Source: Saururus chinensis
Lineage: Eukaryota > Streptophyta > Magnoliopsida > Piperales > Saururaceae
Length of the DNA stretch: 64,000 nucleotides
Direction of reading: 5' to 3'
NCBI GenBank assembly: GCA_035235625.1
Contig: CP141148.1
Location: forward strand, 15,563,057-15,627,056
Made by a program: the position numbers and the translations under genes. Numbering within the stretch: the first letter of the stretch is position 1; each line of letters opens with the position of its first letter. The notes below the pieces were generated by a model. That model saw only the letters and a program-made list of their open reading frames with translations, was not told the DNA's origin and made no database searches. This document shows positions 31,216 to 64,000 of this stretch, piece after piece.

Positions 31216-34200
31216 CTGATACAACCAAGAAAGCAAAAATCAACACGTTGAAAATATATCTCTTTAGTAGAGAACTGCTAAAATAAAGCTGTACAAGGAA
31301 CTTACAATGCCTCTCTTGCTGAAATTAATAATGATTGATCTCTAATAAGTTTTCAACAGATAGGAGAAAGGCATACAACAAAAGATGGCAAGAAAGGGGT
31401 TATTGCTGGAATTAATTTTGATGTTTTTATGCTACTGAATCAATCGTGGATTCGATTCCTTACACAATTCTAAGATTGTTTTTTGATCTTTAGGCTTTTG
31501 CTCTAGGGTTTTTTTGTCTCCCACAAATGTGGGTCTGGTTTTGAGGGTGGGCACTTTTTAACATATTCACCTTTTATACCCTTCTTTTTTTAGTTTAATA
31601 TAACTTGTGACTGTCACTTCACATATAACCCAATGCACTTCAGAACTTATATCTAAGGTTTATGTGCAAAAGATGTTGAATGGCTTGTAATGGTTTCTAA
31701 ATTATATCTCTTGGGAAGCCCAGCAGCTTAAAAGTTTATACCACCTAATTTACAATGTACTTGTGGCAGAATACAAGTATTTGAATATTGCTTTAGTCAT
31801 GGTCTCTTTGGATCAAAGCCTACTTTGGGAAAAGGTAAAGTGGTTGGCAAACAAAGTCAGCTTGTACTCCATTGTTTCCCTCTACATTGAAAGGCAATGA
31901 TTTGATAAGGTCATGGGAAGCTAACTTTTTTAGCATTGGAGTCTACTCCAATCACAGTGGATGTCATAGCTTCAAAGTCTAACTCCCTCCATACAAAGTG
32001 ATAGCCTTTGCTTTAATCAGGTTTGAGTAGTTACATCTTCCCAAATCTGTTTGTAGTGAAACCCGCTACATCTGACTCTATTACTCGTGAGCTTATGATT
32101 CACTTTTTTCTGGCCAACTAATTTTTACGTACTTTAAGAAGAATATCTTTAGGGAGATCCTTAAGAAAATCCTAAACATAGAGACATTTGCTTAAGTTGA
32201 ACTTTCCATATGATAAGAATGGAATGAATATGCCCACAACATACAACCCATTGAGGGGGAGGTAACATACAAATTCTAATGGCACACATATATAATAGAA
32301 TCATTGAAGACTAGGGATTTTGGAGAGAAGAAAGAGCTTCTCTTGAATTGAATTAATTAAGAAGAAGACTATTCCTAGACTCGACCAGCCTCTAAGTAGG
32401 CTTAGGGTCGCCAATAAAAAAAAAGACACTACTACCCTCACTAAAGTGAAGGGTTGACCAATCATGTAATAAGAATAACAATGAAAGACTAAACTACTCT
32501 TTATACATAGAATTATGCTACTAAAGATAACCAAAACTTCAAAGATACGAGCAAATATACTCCACTAACAATATAGAGAGAACATCCCGTGTAAAGAGCA
32601 ATTACCAATTGACTTTTATACCACAAGATCTTTTTTTACTATTGTACTCCGATTGATAACATAAGCCAATGGAAGATTGTTGTGGACGGTTGTCCACAAC
32701 GGCGTGGTAGCCGGCGTAGGTGACAGAAGCGGCGCAGGGAGGCCGGGAAAGGGGAGAGTGGATGGCATCGCCATCAGACAGAAAAGGGAGAGGCACAGAA
32801 GAAAGGGGAGAAGACAAGACAATAATTAATAAATCACTTCATCCATAATCAGATCAGGGCATAGCCCTTCCACTTAAATAGACTAGCTAAGTGGGCTCAC
32901 TAACAAGCACCTAGGGCCCATTAGCATAATTAAAAGAAAACACTAATTACCTAATTAACCTAATTACCTAAATGCCCCTTATTACATAATTACCTAATAA
33001 TAGGCCCTTAGGACGTTCACAACATTCCACCCCGCTTCCGCATCACCTTGTCCTTGAGGTGACCTAAAACTCCAAGCATTGGGCCCACCAAAGCTCCACT
33101 ACGAACAGCCGGTCTGGAACCGTGGATGAGACACGCAGAATGATAGAGATAGTGAGTCACTACTCATAAGCAAACATGCAGAAGCCAAAGCGAACTTGAT
33201 GGATGTGCAATTAACTGAATCCAAGGGCAAGACATAGCTGTGGGCGGCAAAGATGGAAGATGGAGAAGGCGGCAGAGCACAGGAGCGGGCCCGATGTGTT
33301 GGGTGTACAACAACATGGGGTGCCTACACAGGTCTCCAACAAGCGGGGTCACCATAGAGGCTACAGGGCGCCCCAAGACTGTCCACAAAGTGCAACAGAC
33401 AGCAGTAAAGTCGGCCCACAGAGGGCATCAGACAGCAGCAAAGTCAGCCCACAGAGGGCATCAAATGGCATCATGGTCGGCCCACAGAAAGCAGCAATCA
33501 GCAGAGACATAAGCGGCGTAACAGCCTTGGACACAAGTGACGTACTGGACCCATGTGGCCACCCAGATTCTAGAGCCCACAGATGGCCCAGCCCATGCAT
33601 GAAGCCGCTTATAGACCTGAGTAGGTAAGCAATTGTAGGGTGATGAAAAACAGCTTCCTTATAGTATGCTAGGGCTCTATTAAGGTCCCCAGCCTCCAAG
33701 AAGAACCCAACCAGATCGGACCAAGCAATTACAAAAGTTGGCTGTATACGCAATGCCACCACATAATCTTGAGTAACTCTTCCTGGTGGAAACCAAAACC
33801 CGGTGAAAACAGGGATGCAAGTGGACCCGTTGGAGGAGGCCCCAATAGGTCCTATAAAGTGGGTGGCCCAATAACAAATTCCATAATCGTCTCATATCCG
33901 TTCTCGGAAGAAACCGGAGTGATACTATTCCAAAGAGAGGCCCGAACAGAGGAAATATCACGAGAAATCCGGAAAGATGGCTGGCCAAGGCAAAGATGGA
34001 GCCAGTACCGAATTTCCCAATGCTAACGATCCAGAGAAATTCGTTGCAAACAAGCCGCAGCAGTGATAGAAAGTCCCTTCGACGGACCATGGGATTCCGG
34101 ATGACCAGGAGCACAACGCTAAGGAAAAAATTCATAATCCAAAGATTTCGGTCCTTCCCAGATTGAGCGACATCTCCAAACCGGGAAAACCAATCCAAAA

Positions 34201-37200
34201 AATCCCGTGTGAGCAGGGAAGCTTCATCACCAGCTTGGAAAAATCTCCAAATTGGCCAAAGATCTCCCAAGCAAAATCGCTTCCGCCGGCTGGTGAAGGA
34301 AAAGATTTTCCAGAGCCGAAGATTGCGGCGGTTCTACGGGAGGAGATGCTGACGGACCAACTGGAGGCATAGCACCTTGGAAGGTGGTCGAGACGGTGGG
34401 ATGGGATGGCTGAGAGCATGGAGATGGTGGCCGTTTTCTGGACCTCTGATGGATGCGCAGCCCCAGAGGTGTCTCCGATGGAGGCACAGCCCACCCCGAC
34501 GATTGGGCGTCCCATCTTGCAGAGCGGATAGGTCCAGAGCGGGGAAGGGTTGCCTCCCCTATTCGCGCCGACGAAACAGGGGCTGTGCTCCGGCTGCACG
34601 AGCAGAGGCCGGAGGTGACGAAGGATGGACGCAAAGGCTAGGATGGAAATGATCAGGCGACTACAGAGGAGGCTGGAGTTCAAGCGGTGGGGCGGCTGCT
34701 GGAAAGGCCCAAACTTTGGAAGCTTGGTCACTGGTCCCCTATTTTCAACAGAGAAACAGGGTGCTGATCCGGCGGAGGAGAAGAAGGCAATCAGGTTGCT
34801 GGCGGCTGAGGCTTTGGCGGAGGGCGGAGCATAGAAGGAGGTGGCCATTTTCTGGGTCTCAAGTCTCTGACGGTTCAAAGAATTCGCAAGGGAGATGGTC
34901 ATGAAATCAGCACTGACGGACTCGGCCTTGCTCGCTGAGGACTAGGCGGCTCCCGTTTGGCGCAAGCGGAGCTTGTCCTAGAATGACTTCCAGACGTTCT
35001 TCTGGCTCTCTGCGATGACGACGGCGCAAGCATCTCCACCCCTCACTCTGCTGGACTCTTCGTCCCGAATGATGTCAAGGAAGGTCCTGCTCGGGGTGGT
35101 CGGCGGCATATGCACAGGAGCGGCATTCTCACGGCCAATGACAAAGCCAAGGGTGAGGCCGTGGCCACCGGGCTGGAGCCGAGGGTGATGAAGGCGACCC
35201 TTTTTTTGTCTTTTCTGTTGCCGGAATTGGTTCTCTCTGCAACGCAAGGCCACTCGCTTGAATTGATGCATCTCCTTCCTCCATGCAAACGATGGTGGAA
35301 TAGCCGCTTTTGGTGGAGGAGGTGGGGCAACCTGGGGCGGCACCTTGGCTATCTAGGATGCCGCCATGGACATTACCATCCTCATCAAATCCTCACTCTT
35401 CAACCTTCGTGAGCAAAGCAATAATCTCTGCCTGTGGATCCGGCGGCTCTGGCACGTGTGGTGGCCAAGGATTGGTGGCTCCGATACCAATGTTGTGGAC
35501 GGTTATCCACAACGGCGTGGTAGCCGGCGTAGGTGACGGAAGCGGCACAGGGAGGCCGGGAAAGGAGAGAGTGGATGGCATGGCCATCGGACAGAAAGGG
35601 GAGAGGCACAGAAGAAGGGGGAGAAGACAAGACAATAATTAATAATTTACTTCATTCATAATCAAATCAGGGCATAGCCCTTACACTTAAATAGACTGGC
35701 TAAGTAGGCTCACTAACAAGCACCTAAGGCCCATTAGCATAATTAAAGGAAAATACTAATTACCTAATTACTTAAATGCCCCTTTATTACATAATTACCT
35801 AATAATAGGCCCTTAGGACGTTCACAACAAAGATCAAAATTTTTCCTATTGAGAGTCATCATGTAGGAAATTGAACTTTAATATCACATGATCTTCTTTT
35901 AAACCAAGCAATCTAAACTCCTAAACGCAATCTAAACTTAGCGGCAATTTTGGATATTTGGCAAAAATCTCCACCCTCCTTTTCACTTTAATAATAGTAT
36001 AGATATAGATTCTTGCTTACCAAGCAAATAAATGAAAGGTAAGGATAAAATAAAAGGTTACAAATATTGCTTAATCAAATTTATACTTCTTGTTAAATTA
36101 AATGTCTAACAGCATTGTCTGTAACATTTTTGGCTTCTGCATCATATATACTTGGACTTAGAAGTCCTGTAGAAACAAGATAAAAGTGATACGTTTTGCT
36201 TGAAGTGACAAAGGATGAAAATCTAAAATAAATAAAAAAGTTATGATTTGAATAGTTGAAAACAAATCAATAAATAGTCAACAGAAGTTTAAATAATTCA
36301 AAGCTACAGTAGTCATTTAGCAATAAACCATGTTGATCAATCACAATGGAAATGTCTTAGTGACAAAATAAAATGAGTAACCAAATGCACAATATATGCA
36401 CCCTCCAAAATAAATTCACTACACAATATCTGCTAACTCAGAAGATGCAAATGTTTGAAAGAAAACACAAAAAAGAAAAGAAAATGAATAGGACATAGAT
36501 GTTATAGACCACTTTATAATTCATAAATCTGTATTTTTTTCACAATTGGTAGAATTCTCATCAAACTTTGAGTACATCTCGCTCAAACAAAAAGCCCTTT
36601 TAAAATTCTAATTACTACTTTATCAACGTATATTGCATTTCCACCTTTTACATACCTTCCTTTAGAATCTAAGAACAAATCTTCAATTTTAAGTAATTAT
36701 AGCAATAAGTTACTAACCTTTCCAGCTATAAATAAAAAGGTCGGAAAAAACAAAACATTTTCAGACTTTTCTTTTTAAACTGTAATATGATTTCATTTCT
36801 TACCAGCTATATGATTTCACTTCTCATAACCAGCTAGATGGCAGGTATTTATACCAACCAAACTAATCACCCTGAAATCTTCTCAATACTGTGCAACTTT
36901 AAAAAAATTATAATAAACATTTCTTTGATAAAACTTTTAACAAGGATAAGACTTTTCAGCACCCAAATTTAACTAAGTATCACCCCTTACTCGGTGCATC
37001 CCAAAAAATTTTAAAATGTTCAGTGTAACCCGCCTTCATAAGTCCTTTTTTCCTCACTCTCCACAACACCTCTCATGCCCTACTCCTTGTGACTTCATGC
37101 TCTCCCTCCCCCACCTGCCTCAACCTCCTTGCAATAATCTTGGCCGCAACCCCCCTCGGATGTTGTGGTCTTGTCTCCTCTGACGTCCTCACTGTCAACC

Positions 37201-44990: not shown

Positions 44991-45480
44991 ACCAATTTAG
45001 AAAGAAGCAGGGGGCATTGAGCCAGAGGCGCAGTCAAGCGGCCAAGGGCCCGGCTACAGCCACCGGCGACCGTCCGCGGCCAGGAAGCGGCGGATCTGAT
45101 TGCTGGAGGCTGCAGGTAACCAGCCACGGATATGCAAGGGTGCTGGCCAGAAAGCCACCGCTTTCATGGCCGCCGTTGCTGGCCAGAAAGCTGCTGCTTT
45201 CATCGCCGGTGCTGGCTACTTGAGGCGAGATCTGCTGGAGAGAAGACATCCGGCAGCGGAGAGGAGGAAGGAGGGAAGAAATGGGAGCATGGACGCGCCA
45301 GAGGGGAGGAAGGAGAGGAAAAATTGGAGAGAGATAGAGAGAGAACCTGTTGGAGAGAAGACGCGGTCGGTGGAGAAGCTTGGAGCGCCGCCGGTGGACA
45401 TGCACCGGCGAGATATAGGAGGCACTGGCTAGGGAATCTTCCAATTGGGCGTGCTTGAGGAGAAATTTTCGAGTGGGAAT
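44991..45480 (-). other. GC-rich block, possible first exon or CpG-rich promoter
   Basis: About 490 bases of GC-rich sequence between AT-rich flanks. Frames are open in several phases on both strands (up to 136 codons on minus, 45444-45034), none with a recognised domain; an internal duplication (GGCCAGAAAGC-GC-GCTTTCAT twice near 45148 and 45181) explains the FLAS-GG repeats in that frame. It is in the right place and composition for a promoter or leader exon of TRAPPC1, since the TRAPPC1 leader is spliced, but no donor can be assigned. Confidence 0.35.
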
Positions 45481-46149
45481 CTACACGAGTGTTGGTGTAG
45501 ATAAGGGAGGTTACGTGAGCTTTATGTCGAGCTGTTTGGGTGTTAAAATAATTCTATTACAATGGGAATTTTTAAAAATTAATTTATCTAATTTAATAAA
45601 GAATAGGAATTAGGTTTGAGTAATAAATTTTTTAAATTGAATTATATTTGGGTAGTAAATTATGATATTTTAGAATTTTTAGAGAAAATTATTTAAATAA
45701 TAAAAAAAAATTATTTAAATAATAATTAAAAAAATAATTATCAAATTAATCTATTTTAAAAAATATTTTCTAAAGTGGTGTTGGTTTTTTCATGTTGGTT
45801 TTTGCCACATAGCGTCAATGCTTGATGGTTTTTTTTAAAAAAAAAATTAACTTATTTCATCCTTTGAAACAACAAAATTAAGTTTAAGTTGATTTCATTG
45901 TTCTAAAGAATGAAATTATTTTAAAAAAAATTAAGTAATTTCGTCCTTTAAATGACAAATTCATGTTAAGTTGATTTCATTATTTTAAAGGACAAAATCA
46001 CCACACATAACGACTTCAATAACTAGACGTCGCAAGCCTAAACAGATTTTGTCATTTGAAATGCCAAAATTAAGCTTTTATACCACCATTATTATTATAT
46101 CCGTCACATAAAAATAAATTTTAAGGAGTTTAAAAATAATATACTGACA
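45481..46149. other. AT-rich spacer
   Basis: No gene. Long A/T runs and several short inverted repeats around TTTCATCCTTTGAAA-type words at 45850-46000. Confidence 0.5.
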
Positions 46150-46985
46150 GACTTGATTTGGGCAGTAGCTTGTGCATTTACACTAGAAAAGTTTGATGTT
46201 AAAATAAACTTGATTAGTCATGAGAGTCCTAGGGTAAAACATCTCCTCTTAAGAGGAGAATTATATCTTGCACAGTGGTCTCTTGCTCACGATAGTATTA
46301 GGAGATTTGGCATAACGATTACAAATATGGCTAAAAGTTTAAATAGTATCTTGAAGGGGGCACAAGGATTACCAATGCAGACTTTAGTGTCATCTACTTT
46401 TTATTGGGTAGTAAATTTTTTTGTGAAACGATCTTCTGCCTCAGATGTCATGGTCACCCCATATGCACCCAGAGTGGATGGGATAACTAGAGAATAAACA
46501 AGAAAAATTGAGTATATAATTAACAGGATTAACCACAACGAGTACGAAGTGATGTCAATTCGTGGGCAGAAGGTTGTGGTGAATGCGGCAGTTCATACTT
46601 ATACATGCAATCTCCCTCAGGTCTATTTGTGTCCTTTCTTGCACCTTATTGCCGTGTGGGGAAAGCCGTGGGAATAATTCTTATTCTCAACCGCTTATAA
46701 AAATGCGTACTTGGCACAATTCTATTCTCCCCATGGTCGGGAGTATTGGGAGAGGGATATGCCTTATGTGTTATTCCCTCCGATAGCAACAAGACAACCT
46801 GGTCACCCATGGTCTATTCGCACTAAAAATACAATAGACCGTATGACTATGGAGAAATATAGTAGAGGAGGGTATAAATGTGGGAGGTATAAACAAAGTG
46901 GACATAATAGTAAATCATGTATAAACCCTCTCATGTTGATTGGTAAACATATAATTAATCTTTTTATTTATTCTCTATTTTAGGT
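46150..46985 (+). pseudogene. MULE (Mutator-like) transposase C-terminal pseudogene
   Basis: In one + frame: LIWAVACAFTLEKFDVKINL, WSLAHDSIRRFGITITNMAK, SLNSILKGAQGLPMQTLVSS and TFYWVVNFFVKR. This is the conserved end of the MURA core (form: W-A-x-x-x-GxRYG..T.N..ES.N..LK.AR.LP). After a TAA the same frame continues through a degenerate SWIM-like segment (YTCNLPQVYLCPFLHLIAVW), another TAA, AYLAQFYSPHGREYWERDMP, and a zinc knuckle KCGRYKQSGHNSKSC in which the second Cys is Tyr. The N-terminal catalytic half is absent. Two stops and the damaged knuckle make it a pseudogene. Confidence 0.8.
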
Positions 46986-47236
46986 ATGATTATATGTTCC
47001 TAACAATTTTAATTCTCCGCAAATCATATAGATTATGTGGAGCCTTTTTACGAGTGAGGCCCGATTGATGAGATAGTACTTGTACAGCAGGAGTCACATA
47101 GGTCGGCTTCTATTTGGCGAGGAGAGGTAGTATAACTCTTTATAAAATTTGTTTCATTTTTTTAGATTATAAATTATGTTGGGTTGATGCCTTGAGTACA
47201 TCGAACATTTTAAATATCTCCACCATTGGTCCATAG

Positions 47237-47812
47237 ACAAGCATATTTTACCCTATATTGAGCGAGCAGGACTTAGACATTTCATTCATCTACAGTACAT
47301 CCGTCTTGATTAGCCTTATTGATAGCTCTCGTCGAGAGATGGAGGAGGGAGACACAGACGTTTCACCTACCATATAGAGAGATGTTCATCACTCTTATAG
47401 ATATGGCAGTTCTTTTAGAACTTTTCATCGATGGACAAGCTATGATAGACATGACAGGAGGAGGTCATTTAGACTTATTAGTCAGACTCCTTAGTAGAGC
47501 TCTTTTTGCTACAGTGATGTGTGGTAGCTGAGTGAGCCTTAGATGACTTTTAGGTGACTTTCGTGAGCTCCCAGTGGATGCTATGGAGATAGTTATTGAG
47601 CAGCATGCACGGGCGTATTTATTATATTTACTTGGGGCCACGATATTCGCAGATACCACGAGTAGTTATGTACATGTTGCATATCTCTCCCTCCATGTGA
47701 ACTTCGACATGGTGGGTGATTATTCATGGGGCAGTGCTACTCTTGCATTTTTATACCAAGAGTTAGGGAAAACATGGCAAGCCATGACCTCGGGGATTGT
47801 AGGCTGTCTATA
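47237..47812 (+). pseudogene. Plant mobile domain (PMD) pseudogene linked to MULE
   Basis: Frames read AGLRHFIHLQYIRLD, then after a one-base shift LALLIALVERWRRETQTFHL, YREMFITLIDMAVLLELFID, and after a stop near 47530 LPVDAMEIVIEQHARAYLLY then LLGATIFADTTSSYVHVAYL and YSWGSATLAFLYQELGKTWQ. These match the aminotransferase-like plant mobile domain (form IRLDHALITALVERWRPETH, TFHLP-GEMTITLQDVAVLLG). PMDs occur in MAIN/MAIL1 proteins and in MULE-type transposons; adjacency to the transposase fragment suggests the transposon form. An exon-like piece at 47025-47130 (VLVQQESHRSASIWRGE) lies between. Broken by a frameshift and a stop. Confidence 0.75.
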
Positions 47813-48449
47813 GGGGTGTAAACGGATAGACACAGGCAAAGGCTATCCGCATCTGTCCGTTTTCATATTATTATATTGTCTGTCTGTCCATTGTCCGTGA
47901 CAGACAAACAAATTGTTTGTCTGTTTCTTAATCTAACTTAATCTAATACAATATAGAACCAAAAAAGAAAAGAAAAACTCAATCACCCACCCAAAAAACC
48001 AAAACAATAAAACAAATCACATAAAAAAGGGCCAAATAATTGAAACCGAATACAAATTAGAAAATAAAAAATTAGAAACCCTTTTTCTATTAAAAAAATC
48101 CAAATAAAAACGAGAGAAGTGTGCAAAAATTTACCTTTTTATTAGAAAATAAATCAAAAAACAAGCCTCCACTTCAAAAATAAAGAGGGAAATGCTAGAA
48201 AACTAGAAAAAAAATCAAAATCAATTCCAAATAGAAACAAAGACAAAAAAAACTCATTGTAGCCAACACAAAAACCAGAACACACCTCCTAATTCACAAA
48301 CAATCACCAAAAAAACAAAGAATCAACCTCTTCTTACTGGGAATCCCAACCAGGTGCAGGAAAGAGGGGCCAAGACAGTAGCAGGAGGGAGTGGAGGAGC
48401 GTTGAACCAGGATTTTGTTTGCTATGTTGTTGTGCCCATTCTAGGGCTC
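47813..48449. mobile_element. hAT-type MITE end and AT-rich spacer
   Basis: TAGGGGTGTAAACGGATAGA at 47814 is the kind of terminus found in plant hAT MITEs. It is followed by GTCCG/CTGTC-rich sequence and a near-perfect hairpin CAGACAAACA-AAT-TGTTTGTCTG at 47901-47923. No right-hand terminus is found before the LTR at 48450, so the element is probably truncated. The rest is A-rich. Confidence 0.4.
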
Positions 48450-48791
48450 TGTTGTACACGTTCTAAGGCTGCCACTGGAGCCACATGCTAGGGTAATTAG
48501 TGCTTTAATTAGTATTATGAAATAAGGGTATTTAAGTAATTTGGTTAATTAGGTAATTAGTTATTTATGTTAATTATGCTAATGGGCCTTAGGAACTTGT
48601 TAGTGGGCCTATTAGTTAGCCTATTTAAATGTAAGGGTTATGCCCTAAGTTGATTAGTGAATGATTAATTGTCTGATCTTCTTCCCTTTCTTCTGTGCTT
48701 CTCCCCTTTCTGTCTGATGGCCATGTCATCCACTCTCCCCTTTCCTGGTCTCCCTGTGCCGCTCCATGCTTATGGACAATCGTCCACATCA
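48450..48791 (+). repeat. 5' LTR of element D2
   Basis: TGTTGTACACGTTCTAAGG at the start and CGTCCACATCA at the end align with TGTTGTGAACGTCCTAAGG and CGTCCACAACA of D1. A TATA-like CTATTTAAAT lies at 48621-48630, followed by GTAAGGGTTATGCCC, conserved in D1. Confidence 0.85.
48621..48630 (+). promoter_or_regulatory. TATA-like box in D2 LTR
   Basis: CTATTTAAAT about 170 bases into the LTR, conserved in both D1 LTRs as CTATTTAAGT. It would start transcripts just upstream of GGGTTATGCCC. Confidence 0.45.
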
Positions 48792-48804
48792 TTGGTATCG
48801 AAGC
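48792..48804 (+). other. Primer binding site of element D2
   Basis: TTGGTATCGAAGC directly after the LTR; one change from the D1 site TTGGTATCGGAGC. Confidence 0.85.
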
Positions 48805-48842
48805 AGTTACGATTCCCAGCCATTGTTCTCACTTCAGCTTCA

Positions 48843-50339
48843 ACGGACAGCCCGAAGGCCAATCCGGCGGCATTTGATGCCAAGTTGTCAGAGCTCATAG
48901 TAGCGGTGCAGGCTCTCACTACAGACATGGCCAACATAAAAGCTAAGCAGGCAGCCCACGCGCAACTCCTGACAGTGCTCGTAGAACCTATCCAGGGCGG
49001 TCTGTCACGGTCTCCCGAATAGCACCACCTCCTACTATGGCGTGCAGACCCAACTTCCCATCTAGGCCAGGGGCATGATGGCGTCTGGCCTTGCACCGGT
49101 GGGGGCAGCAACGGCCTAGCCGTAGGGCCTCGTGTCGATGTGGGTCAACGGTGTGGAAAGCGGCACACAGGTGATTTTGCTGAGCACTCTCTAGGTAGGG
49201 GCAATCTTCATGATTCCACACGCGCAAGCCTGAACTTCCACCAGTTCACTGGTTCCCCTTCACCAATTCTGCAAACAGAGAAGAAACAGGCACGGGAAGT
49301 ATTCAACTCCTCCAGCCCGACGACCACCAATCAACGCTACCTGCTACCGTTGGTCCAGGTGCAGGTCATCCTGGCCGGACTTCTGTCCTTGCCAGTCGCC
49401 AGTGCCCCAACCATCGGCCCCCTGGTCGCCGTCATCAGAACAACCCGATCAGCTCCTTGGTTCACCAACAAAAACAGGGGACCAGCGGCCAAATCTTCGA
49501 AGTTGGTGCCTTTCTAGCAGTACCACCAGCCTCCTCCTTCGCCCGCCGCCGCCGCCGTCTCCATCATCTACTCCAGCTGAGCCGTCAAAATTTCCTTCAG
49601 CAGACCAGCTGCGATCCTCAAGTCTGGGAATTTTTTCCTTCTCCAGCCGATGGGGAAGATTTTCTTTGGGAGATTTTCGGCCAATCGGGATGATTGCGTC
49701 CTCGCTGGCGATCTACTCACACAGGATTTCTCTGGCCGGGTTCGGATTTTCCTGATTGAAAAGCCCGTGTGATCTGGTGTGGGTCTGCTTTCGGGAGATG
49801 ACCCATTGCTGTGGGATTTTCATTCCTTGTGGCTTGCTGAATGTAGGTCTATGCCGCAGCTTAATTGCATCAATTTTCATGGGATTATTCGCATTGGAAA
49901 TTTTGGCAATGACTGCTTGGCCAGTGATATATTCTGATATTTCATGCGATGTTATCTGTCGGTGCTGACCTTTGGGACATTGTTAATCTATGAAGATTAT
50001 GCCTCCCTAATCCCACGGGATTTCCGTGGAAATTTGATTTTGATATAGATCTTGCTGGATGGGGGCCGTGCGCTCCTAGTCATTCCTAGCCTAGCAGGTT
50101 CATTACCTTCCAACTAGCCCAACGATTGCTACACCTTGCTGTACTCAGCCATCGCCTAGCCGGGATTCAACCCCCAATTGACTGGCACCACCATCCAGCA
50201 GCTGCCATTGTTGCAAGCTCAGACCGCCGAAATTTTGCTGCCTTTCGGAGAACCCACCTGCTGCCGGGGAATCTCCGGTGGATGCCATGAACGGAGAATA
50301 GAGGAGTATCGCAAGTTGCTGGTACTGCTTTGAACTGGA
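48843..50339 (+). pseudogene. Gag-like start and family interior of element D2
   Basis: An open stretch (48843-49021) encodes STDSPKANPAAFDAKLSELI, VAVQALTTDMANIKAKQAAH and AQLLTVLVEPIQGG, a helical, gag-N-terminus-like segment, ending at TAG. Later blocks HQFTGSPSPI, NRGPAAKSSKLVPF, FFPSPADGEDFLWEIFGQSG and a less conserved tail to about 50140 align with D1. Frames shift repeatedly, so no complete gag exists. No protease, RT or integrase is present. Confidence 0.55.
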
Positions 50340-50417
50340 ATGAACATGGTGCAAGAAGGGGCGTTGACTACTCTGGCATCTGTTGCATATTCTTCCCGGG
50401 TCCACTTCCAAAAGTAT
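50340..50417 (+). pseudogene. Importin beta-1-like fragment in D2
   Basis: MVQEGALTTLASVA-YSS followed by HFQKY matches the importin-beta form MVQEGALTALASVADSSQEH then FQKYYD. The similarity may begin slightly upstream in another frame (AGTALNWNE before the Met), which would imply a one-base shift at the start of the open frame. Only about 25 residues long. Confidence 0.55.
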
Positions 50418-51053
50418 TGTGAATGGCCAATTGAAGGAGCTGTTGTCATAATGAAATTAACTGGACGGCTGGGGGATGACATTGTGTTTGTGAAGAAAGG
50501 CCAGGAAGCGGATGATGAGCAAGTTATAGAAGGTCGTGACCGAACCGTATTAACCATGAAGAAGGGTGAGCTTGCATTGGTGATAATAGCGTCGGAATAT
50601 GCTTTTGGTTCAACCGAAACCAAGCAAGAGTTGGCCGTGGTGCCTTCCAGGGCATCTGTATGCTACGAGGGTGAGCTAGTTTCCGGGATGGAGGAGAAAT
50701 ATGGACCATTTGAGAAGGTTATCCATGCATTTCATTGTGCTACATATTTTAGTGGGTGTCCACAACTTTTCAGGGAAAAGGTTGCATATCTTATTCTTGC
50801 TCATGCAATAAGAGGTGGTGGCAGTAGATCAACAGAGGCTGCTGCAGAGATTGCACATGCGACAGCACGGTCATGGCTTTCTCCTCTCTTAGAAACTGCT
50901 TGTGATCGACTTGCATTTGTCTTGATGAATCTCTTTGACCTTGCTATTGAGGGCAATCGCTCTCATGCTACAATTTACACGGATCCATACAGAAGGACTG
51001 GAGATATTAACAACTATTTTGGATTCCATGATGCTTTTAAGGCACTCTTTTAA
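50340..51053 (+). CDS. Chimeric ORF of three captured host-gene fragments
   Basis: A 237-codon open frame in the D2 retroelement. Residues 3-26 (MVQEGALTTLASVAYSSRVH, FQKY) resemble a HEAT-repeat segment of plant importin beta-1. Residues 27-115 resemble an FKBP62/ROF1-type FKBP domain: EGAVVIMKLTGRLGDDIVFV, EQVIEGRDRTVLTMKKGELA, EYAFGSTETKQELAVVP. The usual EPFEFKTDE-like segment before EQV is missing, so the domain is unlikely to fold as a working peptidyl-prolyl isomerase. Residues 117-237 (EEKYGPFEKVIHAF, GCPQLFREKVAYLILAHAIR, SWLSPLLETACDRLAFVLMN, GFHDAFKALF) resemble part of the plastid-division dynamin ARC5/DRP5B outside its GTPase domain. No introns interrupt any piece, so the fragments look cDNA-derived. 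Names rest on recognition: FKBP is the surest, ARC5 and importin less so. Function unknown. Confidence 0.65.
   Translation: MNMVQEGALTTLASVAYSSRVHFQKYCEWPIEGAVVIMKLTGRLGDDIVFVKKGQEADDEQVIEGRDRTVLTMKKGELALVIIASEYAFGSTETKQELAVVPSRASVCYEGELVSGMEEKYGPFEKVIHAFHCATYFSGCPQLFREKVAYLILAHAIRGGGSRSTEAAAEIAHATARSWLSPLLETACDRLAFVLMNLFDLAIEGNRSHATIYTDPYRRTGDINNYFGFHDAFKALF
50418..50684 (+). pseudogene. FKBP62/ROF1-like FKBP domain fragment in D2
   Basis: About 89 residues matching a C-terminal FKBP domain of the multi-domain, TPR-containing plant FKBPs. Diagnostic blocks are EQVIEG-DR-VLTMKKGE and EYAFGSTE-KQ-LAVVP. An internal deletion removes the strand before EQV, and several conserved residues are altered (for example IIASEYAF where the family has a Pro or Asp before EYA). 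Confidence 0.75.
50688..51053 (+). pseudogene. ARC5/DRP5B-like dynamin fragment in D2
   Basis: About 121 residues. REKVAYLILAHAIRGG, ARSWLSPLLETACDRLAFVL and NLFDLA-E-NR-H are the blocks I associate with the middle to C-terminal region of ARC5, the cytosolic dynamin-related protein of chloroplast division. No GTPase motifs are included. The frame ends at TAA, 25 bases before the Athila insertion. Confidence 0.6.
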
Positions 51054-51078
51054 TGGCTTCACTCTCAATCTTTCCGAG

Positions 51079-52510
51079 TGTTGTTATATCTGAAATAAGA
51101 CTATGAAGGAGTCAAATTCAGATTTATTATACTTGCCAATTGTAGTAGATAAGGTCGATCCACAGGGAAAGCCTTGTGCAACAAAGAAAATTGTTACGTA
51201 AAAGTAGAGGAAAGAAAAATTAAGATAGAAAAAGTAGAAGAGTATTGAGGCAATAAGGAGTCAAAAAATTAAGATGAGAAAACACTAAGGCATTAAGGAT
51301 CATTGTAACATCTAACGATGTTCTTCATGTATCATGTTATCTCAGTTAGAATCGAATGAGAATTCTATCTAACCAGAAGATATGAACATTAAAATTGAAA
51401 TGAAATATAGAAAATATTTTGGATAGATGAAGGATAAAAATAATTGTCTCTTAAAGATTTCTATATATCCAAATCACAAAAGATCAAAAAGGATAGCCTT
51501 CAAGCATCTTATGTATCCAAATCACAAAGAAACAAGAAGAAGAACAATATTAAATAAACATCACTTCAAATAAGCAATACTTACTTGAAACAATTGATGA
51601 AACATGAATAGAACTCCATTAGATTGTTACAAATCACCTCTAGCCTTAGCTTGAGAGCTTAGAAAGCCATTATAATAAAACTAAAAACAAAAATACAAAA
51701 GAAGAGAAGAAAAATAGGAGAATAGGGCTCCAAAGAGGAGGGGATGATCCATCTATCACGTCCACCCCTCTATTTATAGGAATAGAAGAGGTTGTTTCAA
51801 AGGAGAAAGTCAAATTATATCTCTAGATTGCATCCTGATTGGTTACTTCTTTGGCACTGATTAGATTCTAAATAAATCACATAAATTAATAATTTATTTA
51901 GCAAATAAGTATCTTTGAATCTTCCTTTAGATATCCAATCAGCCTCATTATCTTTCCTTATGTGTATCAATCATAATCAATGAAAATATTCTCCATATGC
52001 TGGCCTCGGGTTAGTTTACTATCTATCCATTTGCATGCCAAATTCTACCCATATATCTTCGGAATTTGGAATTTCTTCCTGAAATAACAAATGTAGCCAC
52101 AAAAGTCTTATTTCCAATGCCACCCAAATAGTATCAATCCGAATTATACAGAGAAAGATATGGTCAAAATACTATGGTTGTGTCAATTTATCCGAATCAG
52201 CTTCTTTCATAATTTAGTTCTCTTGATGCAAATCTCAAATCTAATGGGTCCACAAGGTTGTGTTCGACCATTCCATGCATGTTTAGACCATTAGGAGCTT
52301 ATTCTTGACTTTTAAATAGCATTGGGTAGTTGGGCTTAACTTCCTCTTCCAGTTGGATCCTGTTGAAGCCTGTTTAGACATGTAAACTCAATTAAGGTCC
52401 AACTAACCTATTCAAAACATAAATTGCCCAAATAAGTAATGACTTAACACAAAATAGGATTACAATTTAAAATTTAAAAATATTTTATTGAACATTATTT
52501 CAATGCATCA
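51079..52510 (-). repeat. 3' LTR of Athila element C
   Basis: 1432 bases, TGTTGTTATATC at the left and AATGCATCA at the right on +, so TG...CA on the minus strand. The first 61 bases align with 59651-59711. A PPT lies at 52511. Confidence 0.88.
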
Positions 52511-52530
52511 AATACCCCCAAGCCTACTTT
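52511..52530 (-). other. Polypurine tract of Athila element C
   Basis: The minus strand reads AGTAGGCTTGGGGGTATT directly before the LTR start TGATGCATT. This G-run tract is the typical Athila plus-strand primer. Confidence 0.88.
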
Positions 52531-53941
52531 TTGTTAGTCCTCGAGCAAAACAAAAATTAAAATAATAAAAAACAAAACTAACTACTCCACTTCCGCAGGA
52601 AATCTCGATTGCATTTAGCATATGCAATAAGCCTTTAAACCCCTAGCTTACACTAGTGGATGAGTTGTGTCTCGTGAGGGTTTGCAGTGAATATACCCAC
52701 AAAATTTAAAATTTAAATGATAGAAGAAAATTAAAATTAAAACCACGTCAAATTTACAAATCAACTCCTAAACATGTGACCTCATTTAGTAAAATCAATA
52801 ATACAAAATACAACTTGTCTTCTTAAACAATAATTCATTCTGACAACTTCATATTGGTGGCAAGTACTTATTATACATACATAATAGTTTTACAAAAATT
52901 GACATTGTTAAGTAATTATACAATCCCAATCTCATGAATTGAACAACTCAATGTCTCTCATGTCCACTTAGTAATTTCAATTTTAACACTAAAAAAAAAA
53001 GGCATTGGCATCCATTCATCTTCAAGAGATCATAATAGAGAATCATGCAAAACCTTCTTTGAAAAGTAAAACACCCTAGATCACATGTCAACTCATTCAA
53101 GATATAATTGCATAGTGTCCTATTAGAATTTTGTGCTCATCTCACAATACATGTGTAAGGCTTAGCCTTTTAAACTTTCTATAAGGTCCATGTAACAAGT
53201 GTTAGGCCGGTGACTCCCAATCCAGTTGGCTCAGGGCACTAGGTGTTAAAGCACCCCTCAGGCTTAATAACTTGAACCAAATAGGCTTCAAGGTTATGCA
53301 TGTCATAAATTAGTCAACTCTACCTTTTGACTTGAACACCCTATGCTTAGTGAGGCACGCCGAGTCCTAGACTACTCAATAGAGTGACTTTAATTTATTA
53401 CAATTTTTCATTATTTTTTTCCACATTTTTTTCTTGAGCACATTATACATTTAACTTGAATTGTGTTGACAAAAAGTCCTTGACTATTCTACAAACCAAG
53501 AATAGTGAAGCTCAAAACTCTATCATGATAACATGGATACTACTAGATCATGCCAAAGTTTTACTCTCATAAGAAAATAATTACTTAGATTCAATGATAT
53601 CCACCAAGATGTAAGACCATAATCAAGGGCTCGAATTCTCACTTAGGTAAATGTCTTGCTTTGATTTTTTTCAAATTAGGAGCACAAGAAACCAATATGA
53701 AGTAATCAGAACACAAAATCATTAAATCTGTCAAGTCATATTCTAAGTAGTCTAATGTCATTAAATAAAGTCACATGTATAGAATAAGAATCAATGTAAA
53801 TAAGCAATAACAAATCTAATTAATTTTTTTCAATTTTTCATTTTTTTAAGTAATATCTTTCTACACCCCCAAACCTAAACTAAACATTGTCCTCAATGTA
53901 AAATTTTTTTTTTGTTTTTGGGAAAAATTATAAAAAGAAAA
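52531..53941 (-). other. Non-coding 3' region of Athila element C
   Basis: Holds the same landmarks as the derivative at 20.4-25 kb: the GGTTTGCAGT block (52680), GCACTAGGTGTTAAAGCACC (53239) and a second purine tract GGTTTGGGGGTGTAG preceded by CATTGAGGACAATGTT at 53858-53898. No env-like frame is visible. Conservation of the tracts between two diverged copies suggests a cis function, not decay. Confidence 0.6.
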
Positions 53942-55449
53942 TCAACCCTCATAATTTGGATTTTCAAGAGATGTAGACTCAACTTCAGGGACAAAAGGGT
54001 CTAAAAATAGTTTCAAACATTGGCTATTAACTTTGAAAATATCACCATTTTTTGGGTTTTCAATTTCAACAGTTTCATAAGGAAAAATAGTTTTTACAAT
54101 GAAAGGACCTATCCAACGTGATCTTAATTTTCCTGGAAAGAGATGAAGTCTAGAGTTGTACAATAAAACTTTTTGAAATGGCTCAAAAGTTTGTCGTAAA
54201 ATGTTTTTATCATGAAAAGCCTTCGTTCTCTCTTTGTAAAGTTTTGAACTCTCATAAGTATCACGTCGAATTTCCTCTAACTCATTGATTTACAATTATC
54301 TATTTAAGCTAGCCTTATCAAAGTTAAAATTCAAAGCTTTGATTGCCCAATATGCTCTATGTTCCAACTCCACAGGCAAGTGACAAGCTTTTCCAAAAAT
54401 CAAGCGGTAAGGAGACATGCAAATTGGGGTCTTAAAAGTAGTACGGTAAGCCAAAAGAGCATCGGTTAGCCGTAAAGACCAATCTTTACCATTTGGATTT
54501 ACCATTTTTTGCAAAGTTTATTTAATTTCCTTATTAGAAATCTCAACTTGTCCACTTGTTTGTGGGTAATAGGGGGTAGCTACTCTATGGGTAATCTCAT
54601 ACTTCCTCATCAAAGCCTCAAAAGGTTTATTGCAAAAATGTGACCCCTCGTCACTTATAATGGCTCGAGGTGTTCCAAACCGTGAAAATATATTTTCTTT
54701 TAAAAAGTGCACAATGACTTTGTGGTCATTGGTTTTGCTTAGAACAGCCTCAATCCACTTGGAAACATAATCGACGACAACTAAAATGTAAACATAGCCA
54801 AAAGAAGGAGGAAAAGGTCCCATGAAATCAATGCCCCAACAATAAAAAATCTCAATAACTAATATGGGGTTAAGGGGCATCATATTTCGACGAGATATGG
54901 CTCCTAACTTTTGACACCTTTCACAAGTTTTGCAAAATTCATGAACATCTTTGAAAAGCGTCAGCCAGTAAAACCACATTACAAAATTTTAGCGGTGGTC
55001 TTTTTAGAGGAGAAGTAACCACCGCATGTTTCAGAATGACGGAAAGAGATGATACTTACTTGTTCAGAATCAGGCACACATCTCCTTATTATTTGATCCG
55101 GACAGTACTTAAAGAGATAGGGGTCATCCCAAAAGAAATGTTTTACCTCGATGAAGAATCTCTTCTTATCTTGAGGAGACCAATGGTGGGGAACTTTACT
55201 TGTCACCAAGTAGTTGGCAATGTCGGCATACCATGGAGGATGTAAGACGGCAAAAAGTTGTTCATCGGGGAATGTGTCTTGGATTGGAATATTTTTCGAA
55301 GAATCAGAAAATTTCAATCTGGAAAGATGATCCGCCACCACATTCTCTACTCCCTTCTTGTCTTTGATTGTGAGATCAAACTCTTGGAGTAGGAATATCC
55401 ATCGGAGCAATCTGGGCTTTGTATCTTGTTTGCTCAAAAGGTACTTCAA
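53942..55449 (-). pseudogene. Integrase pseudogene of Athila element C
   Basis: Inserts cDNA into the genome in active relatives. Open pieces: RNase H end to zinc finger (55449-54979, with ADHLSRL and RHSETCGGYF), core (54979-54518) and C-terminal part (54514-53942, with [40 protein letters not shown]). In the core the zinc Cys are at residues 16-22 (CKTCERC) and the D,D,E set is GIDFMG (D51), IISDEG (D110) and GQVEISN (E146), spaced as in Ty3/gypsy. One zinc His (CGGHF in relatives) is Tyr. The stop at 54515 and two stops near 54280-54293 are TAA at positions where relatives have Gln (CAA). Confidence 0.88.
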
Positions 55450-56823
55450 AGCTGCATGGTCAGTAAAAATGATAATCTAAGAGCCAATCAAATAAGATCT
55501 AAATTTGTCAAGTGCAAATACTACAGCAAGAAGTTCTTTTTCAGTGGTGGAGTAGTTCATTTGGGCACTATTTAAAGTTCTACTTACATAATGAATTACG
55601 GAAGGTTTCTTATCTTTCCTTTGCCCTACAACAGCCACAACGGCATAATCACTTGCATCACACATAATGTCAAAAGGAAGGTTCCAATCTGGGGGTTGCA
55701 TGATGGGTGCGGACACTAACATGTTCTTAAGCTTTGTGAAAGCTTCTTCACATGCATTTGACAACTCAAAAGAATGCTCTTTAGATAGAAGATTACACAA
55801 TGGTCTAGATATCACACTAAAATTCTTGATAAATCTTCTATAAAAACCGGCATGCCCTAGAAAGGATCTAACATCTTTTATGGACTTTGGACTAGGCAAA
55901 TTAGCAATCAATTCAATTTTTGCCTTGTCCACTTGAATTCCCTGCACAGAAACAATGTGCCCAAATACTATTCCAGTAGTAACCATAAAATGACACTTTT
56001 CCCAATTTAAAACTAGATTTTTCTCTTCATATCTCACTAAAACTTTTTCTAAGTTATCAAAAGAATCACCAAAAACAGAAAAGTCATCCATAAAAACTTC
56101 CAAAAATCGCTCCACCATGTCACTAAAGATGCTCATCATGCACCTTTGGAATGTGGCAGGAGCATTACATAATCCAAACAGCATCCTTTGATATGCAAAG
56201 GTACGAAATGGACATGTAAAGGTTATTTTTTCTTGATCTTCAAGTGCAATCTCAATTTCGTTGTATCCTGAATAACCATCTAGAAAACAATAAAATTGAT
56301 GACCGGCTACCCTCTCTAGGATTTGATCCATGAATGGCAAGGGGAAGTGGTCTTTCCTAGTGACAGAATTCAATTTCCTATAATCTATGCACATCCGCCA
56401 ACCGGTGGTGACTCTAGTGGGAATTAACTCATCATTGACATTTTTTACCACTGTCACTCCAGACTTTTTGGAAACAACCTGGGTGGGACTCACCCATGGA
56501 CTGTCAGAAATGGGGTAAATGATACCCACATCCAATAATTTTAGGACCTCTGCTCTTACTACCTCTTTCATGTTGGGGTTTAACCTCCGTTGCATTTGTC
56601 TCACAAGTTTTGCATTTTCTTCCATGAAGATCCTATGTGTACAAATCAGGGAACTAATCCCCTTGATATCAACAATGGTCCACCCAATGACATTCTTGTG
56701 ATTTCTAAGGACTTCGAGCAACCTATGCTCTTGCTCCCTATCCAACATTGAAGAGACAACCACAGGAAATGTCTCTCCCTCACCAAGATAAGCGTATTTA
56801 AGTTCAGTAGGGAGGGGTTTCAA
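55447..56823 (-). pseudogene. Reverse transcriptase-RNase H of Athila element C
   Basis: 448 codons open. RT blocks in order: DSPWVSPTQVVSKKSG (107-122), GWRMCIDYRKLNSVTRKDHF (141-160), FCFLDGYSGYNEI, FGLCNAPATFQRCM (216-229), FMDDFSVFG (244-252, catalytic Asp pair kept) and FGHIVSVQGI. RNase H has CDASDYAV (D389) and STTEKELLAVV; its last Asp (FTDHAALKYL) lies just beyond an in-frame TAA at about 55474. It would copy genomic RNA to cDNA. A stop at 56826 separates it from the protease. RT alone would read as intact, but with no gag-pol continuity it is not expected to be expressed. Confidence 0.9.
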
Positions 56824-56825
56824 GT

Positions 56826-57535
56826 CTAGCTTGGGTGGTTGGACACTTGAGGAGCACTATTAGAAGGAGGTAACTCCTCAAAGCAGGCCTTCCACCTATC
56901 AGTATCCAATAATGGAGTTGACTCCAACAAGGAATTTACATCATTAATCATAACATCATCATCAAAGTTAAAATAAGAAAGACATGCTTCAAGAGGGTTA
57001 GAAAATGAAGAAATAGTAGTCATGTCATCAACAAGACTTTCTAAAAGATTCACTCCATGCACATCATCATCATCATCATCTCCTGGTTGCCTGCAAATAT
57101 TAAAAATGTTCAGTTCCAAAGTCATATTTCCAAAAGAAAGCTTCATAACACCATTTCTACAATTAATAAGAGCATTAGAAGTAGCAAGAAATGGGCAGCC
57201 TAATATGACAGGAATTTGAGTACAAGCATTCAAAACTGGTTGTGTGTCTAAAACAATAAAATCAACAGGAAAGTAAAACTTTTCTACTTGTACTAGCACA
57301 TCCTCTACAATTCCTCTTGGTGTTTTAACTAAGCGATCTGCAAGTTGAAGTGTAATGCTTGTAGGCTTCAATTCACTAAGTCCCAATTGTTCATAAACAG
57401 AATAAGGTAAGAGATTAACACTTGCCCCAAGATCAAGCAAAGCTTTTTCAATTCTATAATTCCCAATTATACAAGATATGGTTGGACAACCAGGATCTTT
57501 ATATTTGGGTGGGGTGTTTTGTTACAAAATTGCAC
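56826..57535 (-). pseudogene. Protease region of Athila element C
   Basis: The frame from QNTPPKYKDPGCPTISC through ALLDLGASVNLLPYSVYEQL, ADRLVKTPRGIVEDVLVQVE, FPVDFIVLDTQPVL and ILGCPFLATSNALINCR is the Athila retropepsin-like domain, with the Asp-Leu-Gly active site. An acidic run GDDDDDDVHG follows and the domain ends in an in-frame stop at 56826. Upstream, a TAA at about 57520 cuts it from gag. Confidence 0.85.
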
Positions 57536-59202
57536 TTACTTGTTCTGTCAAAAATGTCTTCTTTTGTACATGTAACTTACGCTTAATTGTACAAAGATCT
57601 TTCAAAAATTTAGCATAAGATGAAATTTGTTTAATGACATCTAAGAGAGGAATGTTAATCTTCACTTGTTTAAAAATTTCAAGAATGTCACCATTTGACA
57701 CCAATTTAGAGGAAGAATGTAACCTTTGAGGAAAAGGAGGAGGAATTGGAGCAACACAATTAAAGTTGTCAAGTTTATCACTATGTTTAGAATTCAAAGA
57801 CTCCTTAGGTTCAACAACCTTCATTGGAATGTTTTTGTTAATGACTTTTCCACTTCTCAAAGTGGTGATGGACTTAACATGCTCTTCTTGTGAACTTGAA
57901 GAATTTAAAATTTCAATTACAAATTGACCTTTAGGATTTGGTTGAGGTTGAGAAGGAAACTTCCCTTTTTCTTTAGTGCTCAAAGTTGTGGTCAATTGTG
58001 TGATAGAAGTCTTCAAATCATTGATGGCTTGCATTGTTTGGTTATTGATTGTTGCTTGACTTTAAATGAATGTTTGCAATGTGTCTTCAAGAATCTTCTT
58101 ATGTGGTGGAACATAATTTGAGGAAGAAGGGGGTACCTGCATATTAGACTCATTTCTCCAACTAAAGTTAGGATGATTTCTCCAATTAGGAGTATAAGTT
58201 TCAGAATAAGGAGAAGAAAATGGCCTTTTGTAGGTATTCATAACATTTGCTTGAGTATGCAACACTTCTTGAAAAGCAGGGATTGTTGGACAATCCTGTG
58301 TTTGGTGTTCATCACTCTCACATATACTACAAATATCTTGTGCTTTTTGAGAAGCTTTAGAGATGTTTTCCCTATTAATTTCCATAGCCTCAACCTTTCT
58401 AGTTAAACCTGTAATTTTTGCTTTTACATCGTCCTCTTCTTTAAGAAGGTACAAGCCTCCCTTAGTTACCCCATTAGATTTGGTTTTATTACTACTTTCA
58501 AATTTATTAGAATTTTCCCATGATTGAGCATTTTCAGCTAACACATTAAAATAGTCCCATGCTTCCTCATATTCTTTACTTAAAAACTCTCCATTACACA
58601 TCATTTCAACAAATTGCCTCATTTGAGAAGATAAGTCATTATAAAAGAAACTAATTGTACGCCATGTTTCATATCCATGATGTGGGCACAACAACAAAAG
58701 TTCTTTAAATATCCCCCAACATTGAAAGAAAGTCTCATTTTCTTTTTGTGAAAACATGATGTTCTTTTGAAGTGTATTAGTTTTATAGGTGGGGAATTTT
58801 TTTTTCAAAAATTCTCTTTGCATTTCTTGCCATGATCCAATGGATCTTGACTTCAAAGAATTCAACCAATTTTTTGCCTTTTCCTTTAAAGAAAAAGGAA
58901 AGAGTTTCAATATAATAGCATCATTTGAAACATTTTGGTTTGGCAAAGTTGCACAAACCTCTTCAAACTCTTTTAAAATGTAAATATGGGCTTTCTGAAT
59001 CTAAGCCATAAAATTTGGGTAGTAATTGAATTACACCCGGCTTGAGTTCAAAACCACCCACATTAGTTGGAAAAATCATGTAAGAAGGAGAACTTAATCT
59101 AGTTGGTTGCAAATAATCACGCAAGGTTTTAACTTGAATATTTTGTGCATTATTATCCCCATTATCACTTCTTAGTTCCTCATTAGTTCTTAGATCCTCC
59201 AT
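57522..59202 (-). pseudogene. Gag of Athila element C
   Basis: Starts at MEDLRTNEELRSDNGDNNAQ (Met near 59202) and runs FELKPGVIQLLPKFYGLDSE, LFPFSLKEKAKNWLNSLKSR, WQEMQREFLKKKFPTYKTN, a Retrotrans_gag core, then CSICESDEHQTQDC, a zinc-knuckle-like CX2CX4HX4C motif, and PNWRNHPNFSWRNESN. An extra A in an A-run near 58970 shifts the frame (HFKRV-stop instead of HFKEFEEVC). TAA at about 58063 and at about 57520 replace Gln-like positions. In an active element it forms the particle. Confidence 0.85.
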
Positions 59203-59629
59203 TGTTTCAAAATAAAGATAATTTTCAAAAGATCTGTTCACTCTGTTTAATCGTCCAGAATTATCACACACTCATGTGAACATGAACAACATTTTTTTTT
59301 AATAACAAACGAAAGTAAAAGTACAAAAATTAAATGACAAAATATAAAAAGTTAGAGGGTTAGAAGTTAATAGAAAAAAATTAAAATTGAAAAATAAGGC
59401 TGAAGGCACTATCGAGGTACACGTTTGATCCCGAAAAATTTTCGGTAGTAACGTGGGTAGTGCTTCCGGTCTAAAAAAAAAGAAAAATTACAGAATTTAA
59501 GTACTAAAAGTAAATGGCATAAAGTAAATGACTTAATTTAAAGAGTTAGTGTGCAAAAATAAAAGTTAGAGAATTAGTAAAGTTAGAGTGAGTTTTTTTC
59601 CATAATTGATTCTTGTCACACGTTGCAAT
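59203..59629 (-). other. 5' leader of Athila element C
   Basis: About 430 bases between PBS and gag. It includes the A-rich stretch near 59290-59330 and ACTACCGAAAATTTTTCGGG (minus strand, about 59440), a short hairpin. No upstream frame of note. Confidence 0.6.
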
Positions 59630-59647
59630 CCCCGGCAATGACGCCAA
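59630..59647 (-). other. Primer binding site of Athila element C
   Basis: The minus strand reads TGGCGTCATTGCCGGGGA. It is two transitions from TGGCGCCGTTGCCGGGGA, the complement of the 3' end of tRNA-Asp used by Athila elements. It lies three bases from the LTR. Confidence 0.88.
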
Positions 59648-59650
59648 TTT

Positions 59651-59711
59651 GTTGTTACGTTTGAAACAAGACTATGAAGGAGTCAAATTCAGATTCATTT
59701 TACTTGCCAAT
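59651..59711 (-). repeat. 5' LTR of Athila element C, first 61 bases only
   Basis: Matches 51079-51139 at 55 of 61 positions. Then the sequence changes to TGTAAGGTCCCTG, the start of another LTR. Because 51140 onward also reads TGTAGTAG the join is slightly ambiguous, but an insertion with CCAAT (59707-59711) as the left target copy fits. Confidence 0.8.
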
Positions 59712-59824
59712 TGTAAGGTCCCTGATTTTTCTACGATTTTCTGGGATTTTTTTGCTATTTTTCTGGTTATTTTCGGCAGGAAAATGTGACGTTTCAGCGT
59801 ATGTGTATTTGTGTCTTTTCCCCA

Positions 59825-59833
59825 TATTTATAC
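59825..59833 (+). promoter_or_regulatory. TATA-like box in element E LTR
   Basis: ATATTTATACCC about 110 bases after the LTR start, followed by GTAGAGTCGGG. Reasonable for a promoter in U3, but no transcript evidence. Confidence 0.35.
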
Positions 59834-59912
59834 CCGTAGAGTCGGGTGTGGGGCTTAGTCGCGGGCCACGGGCCTCGCTGCGCGCTTACAGCGCGAGTTT
59901 TGGACTGATAAC

Positions 59913-59946
59913 GCGTAAAGATGGGGTACGCGTAAAGATGGGGTAC
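59913..59946 (+). repeat. 17-bp direct repeat
   Basis: GCGTAAAGATGGGGTAC occurs twice without a gap and a third partial unit (GCGT) follows. It lies just downstream of the TATA-like box. Confidence 0.95.
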
Positions 59947-59999
59947 GCGTGCATTGGGGACGTAAGTGGAAAAAAAAAGGTGCATAGAATAAAAGATCG

Positions 60000-61750: not shown

Positions 61751-62049
61751 CTAAAAGCCTCGGGACAACAGCTCTCTCATCCATGCAACGGTTTTGACCA
61801 CCAACTCCGCCACCGATGCCGCCACCGTCGTGTGCTCGCCATCGAACGTCATGATTACGAGGTAGGGGAGCTTTGAACTCGTAAATTCATGAAGCATGCT
61901 TTGAATGAGTAGCAGCATGCTAGGATTGTATGATTCCATGCTTGGATGTTAAGTAACGATCCGATTGCATGATGTGCGTGTAAGCATGATTGTATGGTAT
62001 GATTGATATGTATGAGACGTATGCACGTTTTATGGATGTGGATTATGTA

Positions 62050-63165: not shown

Positions 63166-63180
63166 CGCCCAAGAGTGGAA

Positions 63181-63905: not shown

Positions 63906-64000
63906 CCTGGACAAGGGTGTTTGTGTAAGTTGATTTGATATTATGATTTTGGCACGATGGTGCCTTCGGTATGTCTGTGGCACGATGGTGCCTTTGATAT

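Follow-up and report, generated by a model that had tools for sequence, protein, structure and literature searches.

Pieces of importin-5, FKBP62 and DRP5A in one open frame of a probable LTR retrotransposon of Saururus chinensis

A 64,000-nucleotide stretch of the Saururus chinensis genome (contig CP141148.1; the window, in which position 1 is the first letter) contains an open frame of 237 codons in which pieces of three unrelated host proteins follow one another. The region that holds this frame is very probably the 5' part of a non-autonomous long terminal repeat (LTR) retrotransposon that captured pieces of importin-5, FKBP62 and DRP5A mRNAs and later decayed largely without constraint. 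The frame itself is most likely a stretch that lies by chance between a stop codon and a frame change, and not a maintained gene. The pieces and the lesions at their edges are the following.

50340..51053, plus strand: open frame of 237 codons, from the ATG at 50340 to the TAA at 51053
50313..50423, plus strand: captured importin-5 piece, KLLVLL*TGMNMVQEGALTTLASVAYSSRVHFQKYCE, from protein alignments and tblastn
50331..50333, plus strand: in-frame TGA within the importin-5 homology, behind which the open reading frame (ORF) starts, from tblastn with fetched proteins
50427..50699, plus strand: captured FKBP62-type piece, third FKBP domain with 8 to 9 residues missing (Pfam FKBP_C, E value of 7.1e-9; domain 3 of 3jym)
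50700..51036, plus strand: captured piece of DRP5A (dynamin-related protein 5A), in frame with the other two and aligned from 50709
51037..51078, plus strand: continuation of DRP5A as LRHSFNGFTLNLSE, with the frame changed, as far as a Ty3/gypsy insertion, from a separate tblastn high-scoring segment pair (HSP)

A preliminary description of this DNA had reported the 237-codon frame and divided it among an importin, an FKBP and a dynamin-related protein. The frame is present as described (50334 to 51053, or 239 amino acids, when measured from stop to stop), and it reads continuously over both junctions. Where a search against proteins might have returned a single gene family or retroelement proteins only, three separate host families were matched instead, namely importin-5, the FKBP62 type and DRP5A. 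Comparison of the ORF with 5.8 billion proteins gave 318 matches, and the best 120 of the 318 comprised 69 to the dynamin part and 51 to the FKBP part, with E values beyond chance for both the best DRP5A match (2.2e-36) and the best FKBP62-type match (about 5e-32).

The middle piece was correctly named in the preliminary description. Domain 3 of the wheat structure 3jym matches the middle of the ORF at 83 bits, and together with the Pfam match this identifies the piece as FKBP domain 3 of a plant protein of the FKBP62/FKBP73 type. Identity to plant FKBP62 is about 60% (61 of 100 aligned columns identical and 9 gapped against P0021). The residues that are absent lie around DLFEF, in the LFEFR/LFEFK stretch; in FKBP12, the strand in this region carries pocket residues.

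The other two names required revision. ARC5 had been proposed for the third piece; the top matches are DRP5A, and among the best 120 of the 318 matches neither ARC5 nor DRP5B occurs as a name, and those of the dynamin group that have one are mostly called DRP5A, ARC5 not being aligned directly. The piece shares 74 of 114 residues with the DRP5A of Aristolochia californica, followed among the matches listed by A. fimbriata, Papaver and Magnolia. A tree likewise put the ORF next to Aristolochia, although its branch there is very long (1.39) and the placement unsure. Together with the closest DRP5A and O-GlcNAc transferase matches, this would suit a magnoliid host near Aristolochia; the importin and FKBP match lists carried no Aristolochia signal, and the best among the matches listed there were from Musa, Populus and unnamed transcripts. 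DRP5A homology continues beyond the ORF in an HSP at 51037 to 51084 that was given for four proteins, the best with 10 of 16 residues identical, in which the last two codons are gypsy LTR. The 13-residue tail was compared with 58 DRP5A proteins, with 9 identical residues at best and a median of 6, and none of 2,000 shuffled tails equaled it; the tail was located by a motif that includes its first two residues, LR, which leaves 7 of 11 residues as independent matches and makes the shuffling a lenient control.

The first piece had been attributed to KPNB1. Its matches are importin-5 instead: the N terminus of the ORF was aligned by all 120 importin-5-type proteins examined (the best 120 of 926 matches), the best with 21 of 27 residues identical. 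KPNB1 was set aside as the parent, the 30-residue piece having no PDB match at an E value of 10 or below and 20 of 25 residues identical to importin-5; plant KPNB1 itself was not aligned. The homology begins 5' of the ORF as KLLVLL*TGMNMVQEGALT, with the TGA standing where importin-5 has Q, and of the 120 importin-5-type proteins that were fetched, 102 contain KLLVLLQN. The piece is short, at about 42 bits, and was recognized after importin-5 proteins had been fetched with a presumed importin-5 stretch; its identification leans partly on the neighboring pieces and on the upstream KLLVLL. Pfam gave no match for the 30 residues. Importin HSPs that extend 5' of 50313, from 50205, look like chance and were not counted.

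The three pieces stand behind sequence that has the layout of an LTR element, and a complete relative lies in the same window, about 13 kb away.

48450..48791, plus strand: 5' LTR of the three-piece element, 342 bp, TGTTGTACACG...TCGTCCACATCA, from resemblance to the LTRs of the relative at 32678-35829
48793..48804, plus strand: primer-binding site (PBS)-like sequence TGGTATCGAAGC, differing at 2 of 12 positions from the complement of the 3' end of the plant initiator tRNA-Met
49380..49988, plus strand: leader and gag-like backbone shared with the relative, frames broken, similar to 34366-33917 and 34837-34636 of the minus strand
32678..35829, minus strand: complete relative, 3,152 bp, with its 5' LTR at 35491-35829 and its 3' LTR at 32678-33024
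35830..35834, minus strand: 5' copy of the 5-bp target site duplication (TSD) ATCTT, the 3' copy being at 32673-32677
33586..33765, minus strand: captured O-GlcNAc transferase piece in sense orientation, with 38 of 60 residues identical to Aristolochia fimbriata P0122

The relative has the features of a non-autonomous LTR element, with TG...CA ends to its LTRs and a TSD within the usual 4 to 6 bp. Its two LTRs, of 339 and 347 bp, begin and end with TGTTGT...ACAACA and are 94.4% identical over 338 ungapped columns (Kimura two-parameter distance of 0.059). The PBS, TGGTATCGGAGC, differs at 1 of 12 positions from the complement of the 3' end of what we take to be the plant initiator tRNA-Met, the reference used for both elements, and a purine-rich tract, AGCGGGGTGGAA, precedes the 3' LTR. 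The LTR at 48450 to 48791 is 83.0% and 82.4% identical to the two LTRs of the relative (305 and 313 ungapped columns). The backbone is 60% identical to 34366-33917 (94 bits) and 63% identical to 34837-34636 (72.5 bits), with a best score of 32.6 bits among 200 Markov surrogates. As had been described before, the gag-like region upstream of the frame is broken and no pol was detected with it: Pfam at an E value of 1 or below found no retroelement domain in any of nine ORFs scanned (five of the relative, in which pol was thus not detected, and four of the three-piece element, a selection of the frames in each case), nor in the gag-like backbone, the 3' half of the three-piece element being out of sight.

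The shared backbone ends near 49988 in the three-piece element and near 33917 in the relative, and behind each end stands different cargo. In the relative this is a piece of an O-GlcNAc transferase, which we presume to be of the SEC type. P0122 is called "protein O-GlcNAc transferase" by one source, and a 30-residue part of the piece was matched at an E value of 5.3e-14. In the PDB, the cargo ORF matched an engineered tetratricopeptide repeat (TPR) protein with many repeats best (1.2e-23), ahead of human O-GlcNAc transferase (1.4e-17) and SPINDLY (5.9e-4); Pfam TPR matches on this ORF were below the cutoff. Because the relative holds a different host piece behind the same backbone, the element family has captured host sequences more than once. 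That an LTR element captured pieces of three host genes, as the preliminary description proposed by analogy with maize Bs1, is supported, and the sister element with its different captured gene strengthens this view. The presence of two relatives within 64 kb, each with its own cargo, suggests that capture is frequent in this family. That the family consists of a fixed backbone and one slot before the 3' end, refilled with differing host mRNA pieces, and that its genomic copies form a library of chimeric frames in an early-branching angiosperm, is a further idea that we consider possible, if rather doubtful.

The origin that we favor would begin with a non-autonomous LTR retrotransposon switching template onto copackaged host mRNAs during reverse transcription, by which sense pieces of the importin-5, FKBP62 and DRP5A mRNAs would have been acquired end to end. 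Judged from the letters of the DNA, mRNA template switching fits the sense orientation of the pieces, their LTR setting and their apparent lack of introns. In both elements the order is LTR, PBS or PBS-like site, backbone and then cargo in sense. At the join of importin and FKBP lie the residues YE, which are common to both proteins (YYE in the importin of Musa P0211, Y-E in the FKBP consensus), and these may have served as a short homology for the switch. Subsequent decay, with one nonsense codon, one frame change and the loss within FKBP, would have been largely unconstrained, and the Ty3/gypsy insertion at 51078/51079 would then have split the element. Published template-switch models concern, in the parts of the sources that we cite, unrelated RNAs (PMC13317346) and two retroelements (PMC1950507).

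Intron content bears on a different route, in which genomic DNA was captured by a DNA element of the Pack-MULE or Helitron type that happened to lie near an unrelated LTR. No intron occurs within about 100 captured FKBP62 codons, while about 2 would be expected per 100 codons at 12 introns per 564-codon protein. One paper, in the part consulted, gives typically 12 introns for FKBP62 genes and 19 for FKBP72, and counts two FKBP domains in FKBP62 (PMC6156878); wheat FKBP62 genes are given 10 to 15 exons in the corresponding part of another (PMC9739119). Besides the missing introns, the co-linear order of LTR, PBS, backbone and cargo in both elements and the sense orientation of the cargo in both argue against capture by a DNA element. 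No inverted pairs of at least 30 bases were found in 45000-55000, where shorter or more diverged pairs and Helitron ends were not sought. Plant elements of these types often hold several gene pieces, and we nevertheless regard this route as highly improbable.

The limits of the frame were found to be lesions inside captured sequence: the TGA at 50331 to 50333 upstream and a frame change at about 51030 to 51037 downstream. Because homology runs past both ends of the ORF, its 237 codons are the interval from a nonsense codon to a frame change. To gauge decay, columns kept in at least 95% of homologues were taken as conserved, and real genes were scored in the same way. The ORF departs from these columns at 6 of 25 positions for importin-5, 8 of 51 for FKBP62 and 13 of 63 for DRP5A (16 to 24%), and the same treatment of real genes gave mean fractions of 0.003, 0.013 and 0.011 and maxima of 0.04, 0.11 and 0.08, respectively. 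Neutral decay was then simulated under three transition biases until an equal count of conserved residues had changed, which took 70 to 76 substitutions per 236 codons (708 nt), indels not being simulated. A mean of 2.1 to 2.7 stops resulted, against the one observed, with a probability of 0.25 to 0.38 for one stop or none (3,000 runs per transition bias). Since one or no stop arises in 25 to 38% of neutral runs, the open frame needs no selection; an apparent selection signal in it was dropped after the flanking lesions had been found. Given the lesions that bound it, its fit to simulated decay and the 16 to 24% of conserved residues changed, the frame cannot be called young, nor is it established as a gene.

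Both of those had been suggested previously. Youth finds no support, since a stop and a frame change inside the captured pieces bound the frame, 8 to 9 FKBP residues are lost and conserved residues are changed, and the same findings leave a chimeric protein unsupported. In its fullest form this latter idea holds that the frame is a domesticated or still-coding chimeric gene, translated from an LTR-driven mRNA and kept by selection. A single frame across all three pieces and both junctions speaks for it, as does the probability of zero stops under neutrality, 0.08 to 0.14 for the ORF alone. Against this stand the stop within importin-5 and the frame change within DRP5A that bound the frame, the rate of change at conserved residues, an FKBP piece without its LFEFR/LFEFK stretch and a gypsy insertion that cuts the element, and we judge a coding gene improbable. 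Another conceivable role is that small RNAs from the captured sense pieces repress the parent genes. The approximately 70 to 76 estimated substitutions over 708 nt would lower complementarity to those parents, and the interval 45000-55000 has no inverted repeat of at least 30 bases, which makes regulation of this kind quite improbable.

Decay of a captured, unconstrained sequence thus remains the reading that we prefer, and several observations weigh against it. Self-comparison of the 64-kb window revealed no 3' LTR of the three-piece copy, its 3' LTR and TSD lying outside. Direct searches with the importin piece, in the PDB and in a combined protein search with the SEC piece, found no importin; the combined search gave 3 matches among 11 candidates, all of the SEC type. 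Intron loss is indirect evidence, judged for FKBP62 alone and from a typical intron count, not from parental positions, and all comparisons were made with homologues of other species. For the ORF alone, zero stops occurred in only 8 to 14% of neutral runs (4,000 each), and just one frame change is present across 766 nt, indels not having been simulated. Weak constraint in the past is therefore conceivable.

Transduction of host genes as in Bs1 is a process already known; what is new is this example and its relative with different cargo. Maize Bs1 carries segments of three host genes, an H+-ATPase, a xylan endohydrolase and a beta-1,3-glucanase, in the account of PMC13317346, and the captured segments are exons only according to the part of PMC4717578 consulted. 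The element described here is alike in being an LTR element with three host-gene pieces, several host genes (importin-5, FKBP62 and DRP5A) standing in one element. It differs in the genes and the host, and the Bs1 chimeric gene is reported to be transcribed and translated, whereas the pieces here are interrupted and known from sequence alone. In soybean, the figure legend of PMC4717578 gives fragments of three host genes for GmaRetroS15, so that captures of three genes in one LTR element are on record for Bs1 and GmaRetroS15. The gene-carrying soybean terminal-repeat retrotransposons in miniature (TRIMs) of the same source likewise belong to the non-autonomous LTR elements, have TSDs of 5 bp like the relative and contain exon-only fragments; they measure 1,172 to 1,449 bp, compared with 3,152 bp for the relative, with its LTRs of 339 to 347 bp, a length that also exceeds the TRIM limit of less than 1,000 to 1,500 bp stated there. 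LTR-captured genes or fragments number 672 in rice, 1,343 in sorghum and 424 in maize in the counts available from PMC3726574. A maize survey lists 425 LTR elements with gene fragments and, in the portion of PMC2774510 that we cite, no single element in which two or more nuclear genes were identified under its conditions, compared with three in the element here. Literature searches on these genes found no published account of the element, nor did the matches listed for Aristolochia gene capture include one. On its own, the element exemplifies a known process in a decayed state; if the family captures often, the capture rate, the junctions and the fate of chimeric frames would become measurable genome-wide.

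The element that interrupts the DRP5A piece was also delimited.

51079..59715, minus strand: Ty3/gypsy element inserted in the three-piece element, its LTRs having edges at 51079 and 59650

This element is presumably Athila-like. Its LTR sequence at 51079-51144 is 90.9% identical to 59650-59715 over 66 bp, and its minus-strand ORFs, in several broken frames, matched Retrotrans_gag, protease, RVT_1, RNase H and rve in Pfam. The insertion point at 51078/51079 cuts the DRP5A piece and hides the 3' half of the captured element, which would lie past the right end of the window. The gypsy LTR match stops at 59715, and from 59716 to 61900 there follows a GC-rich stretch of up to 71% G+C (window, 37%) with long overlapping frames of no identified family. 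This stretch, beside the broken gypsy LTR, is probably a further insertion.

Elsewhere in the window, large direct repeats of about 82 to 86% identity were noted at 1926-4220 and 12923-15224, and at 15683-19593. A tandem duplication at 28164-28960 has a unit of 402 bp and is 97.5% identical. The end of the window, from 62000 to 64000, is satellite-like and consists of short related units, such as the GAGTATGAGTACGACTGTA-like stretches near 63520-63760.
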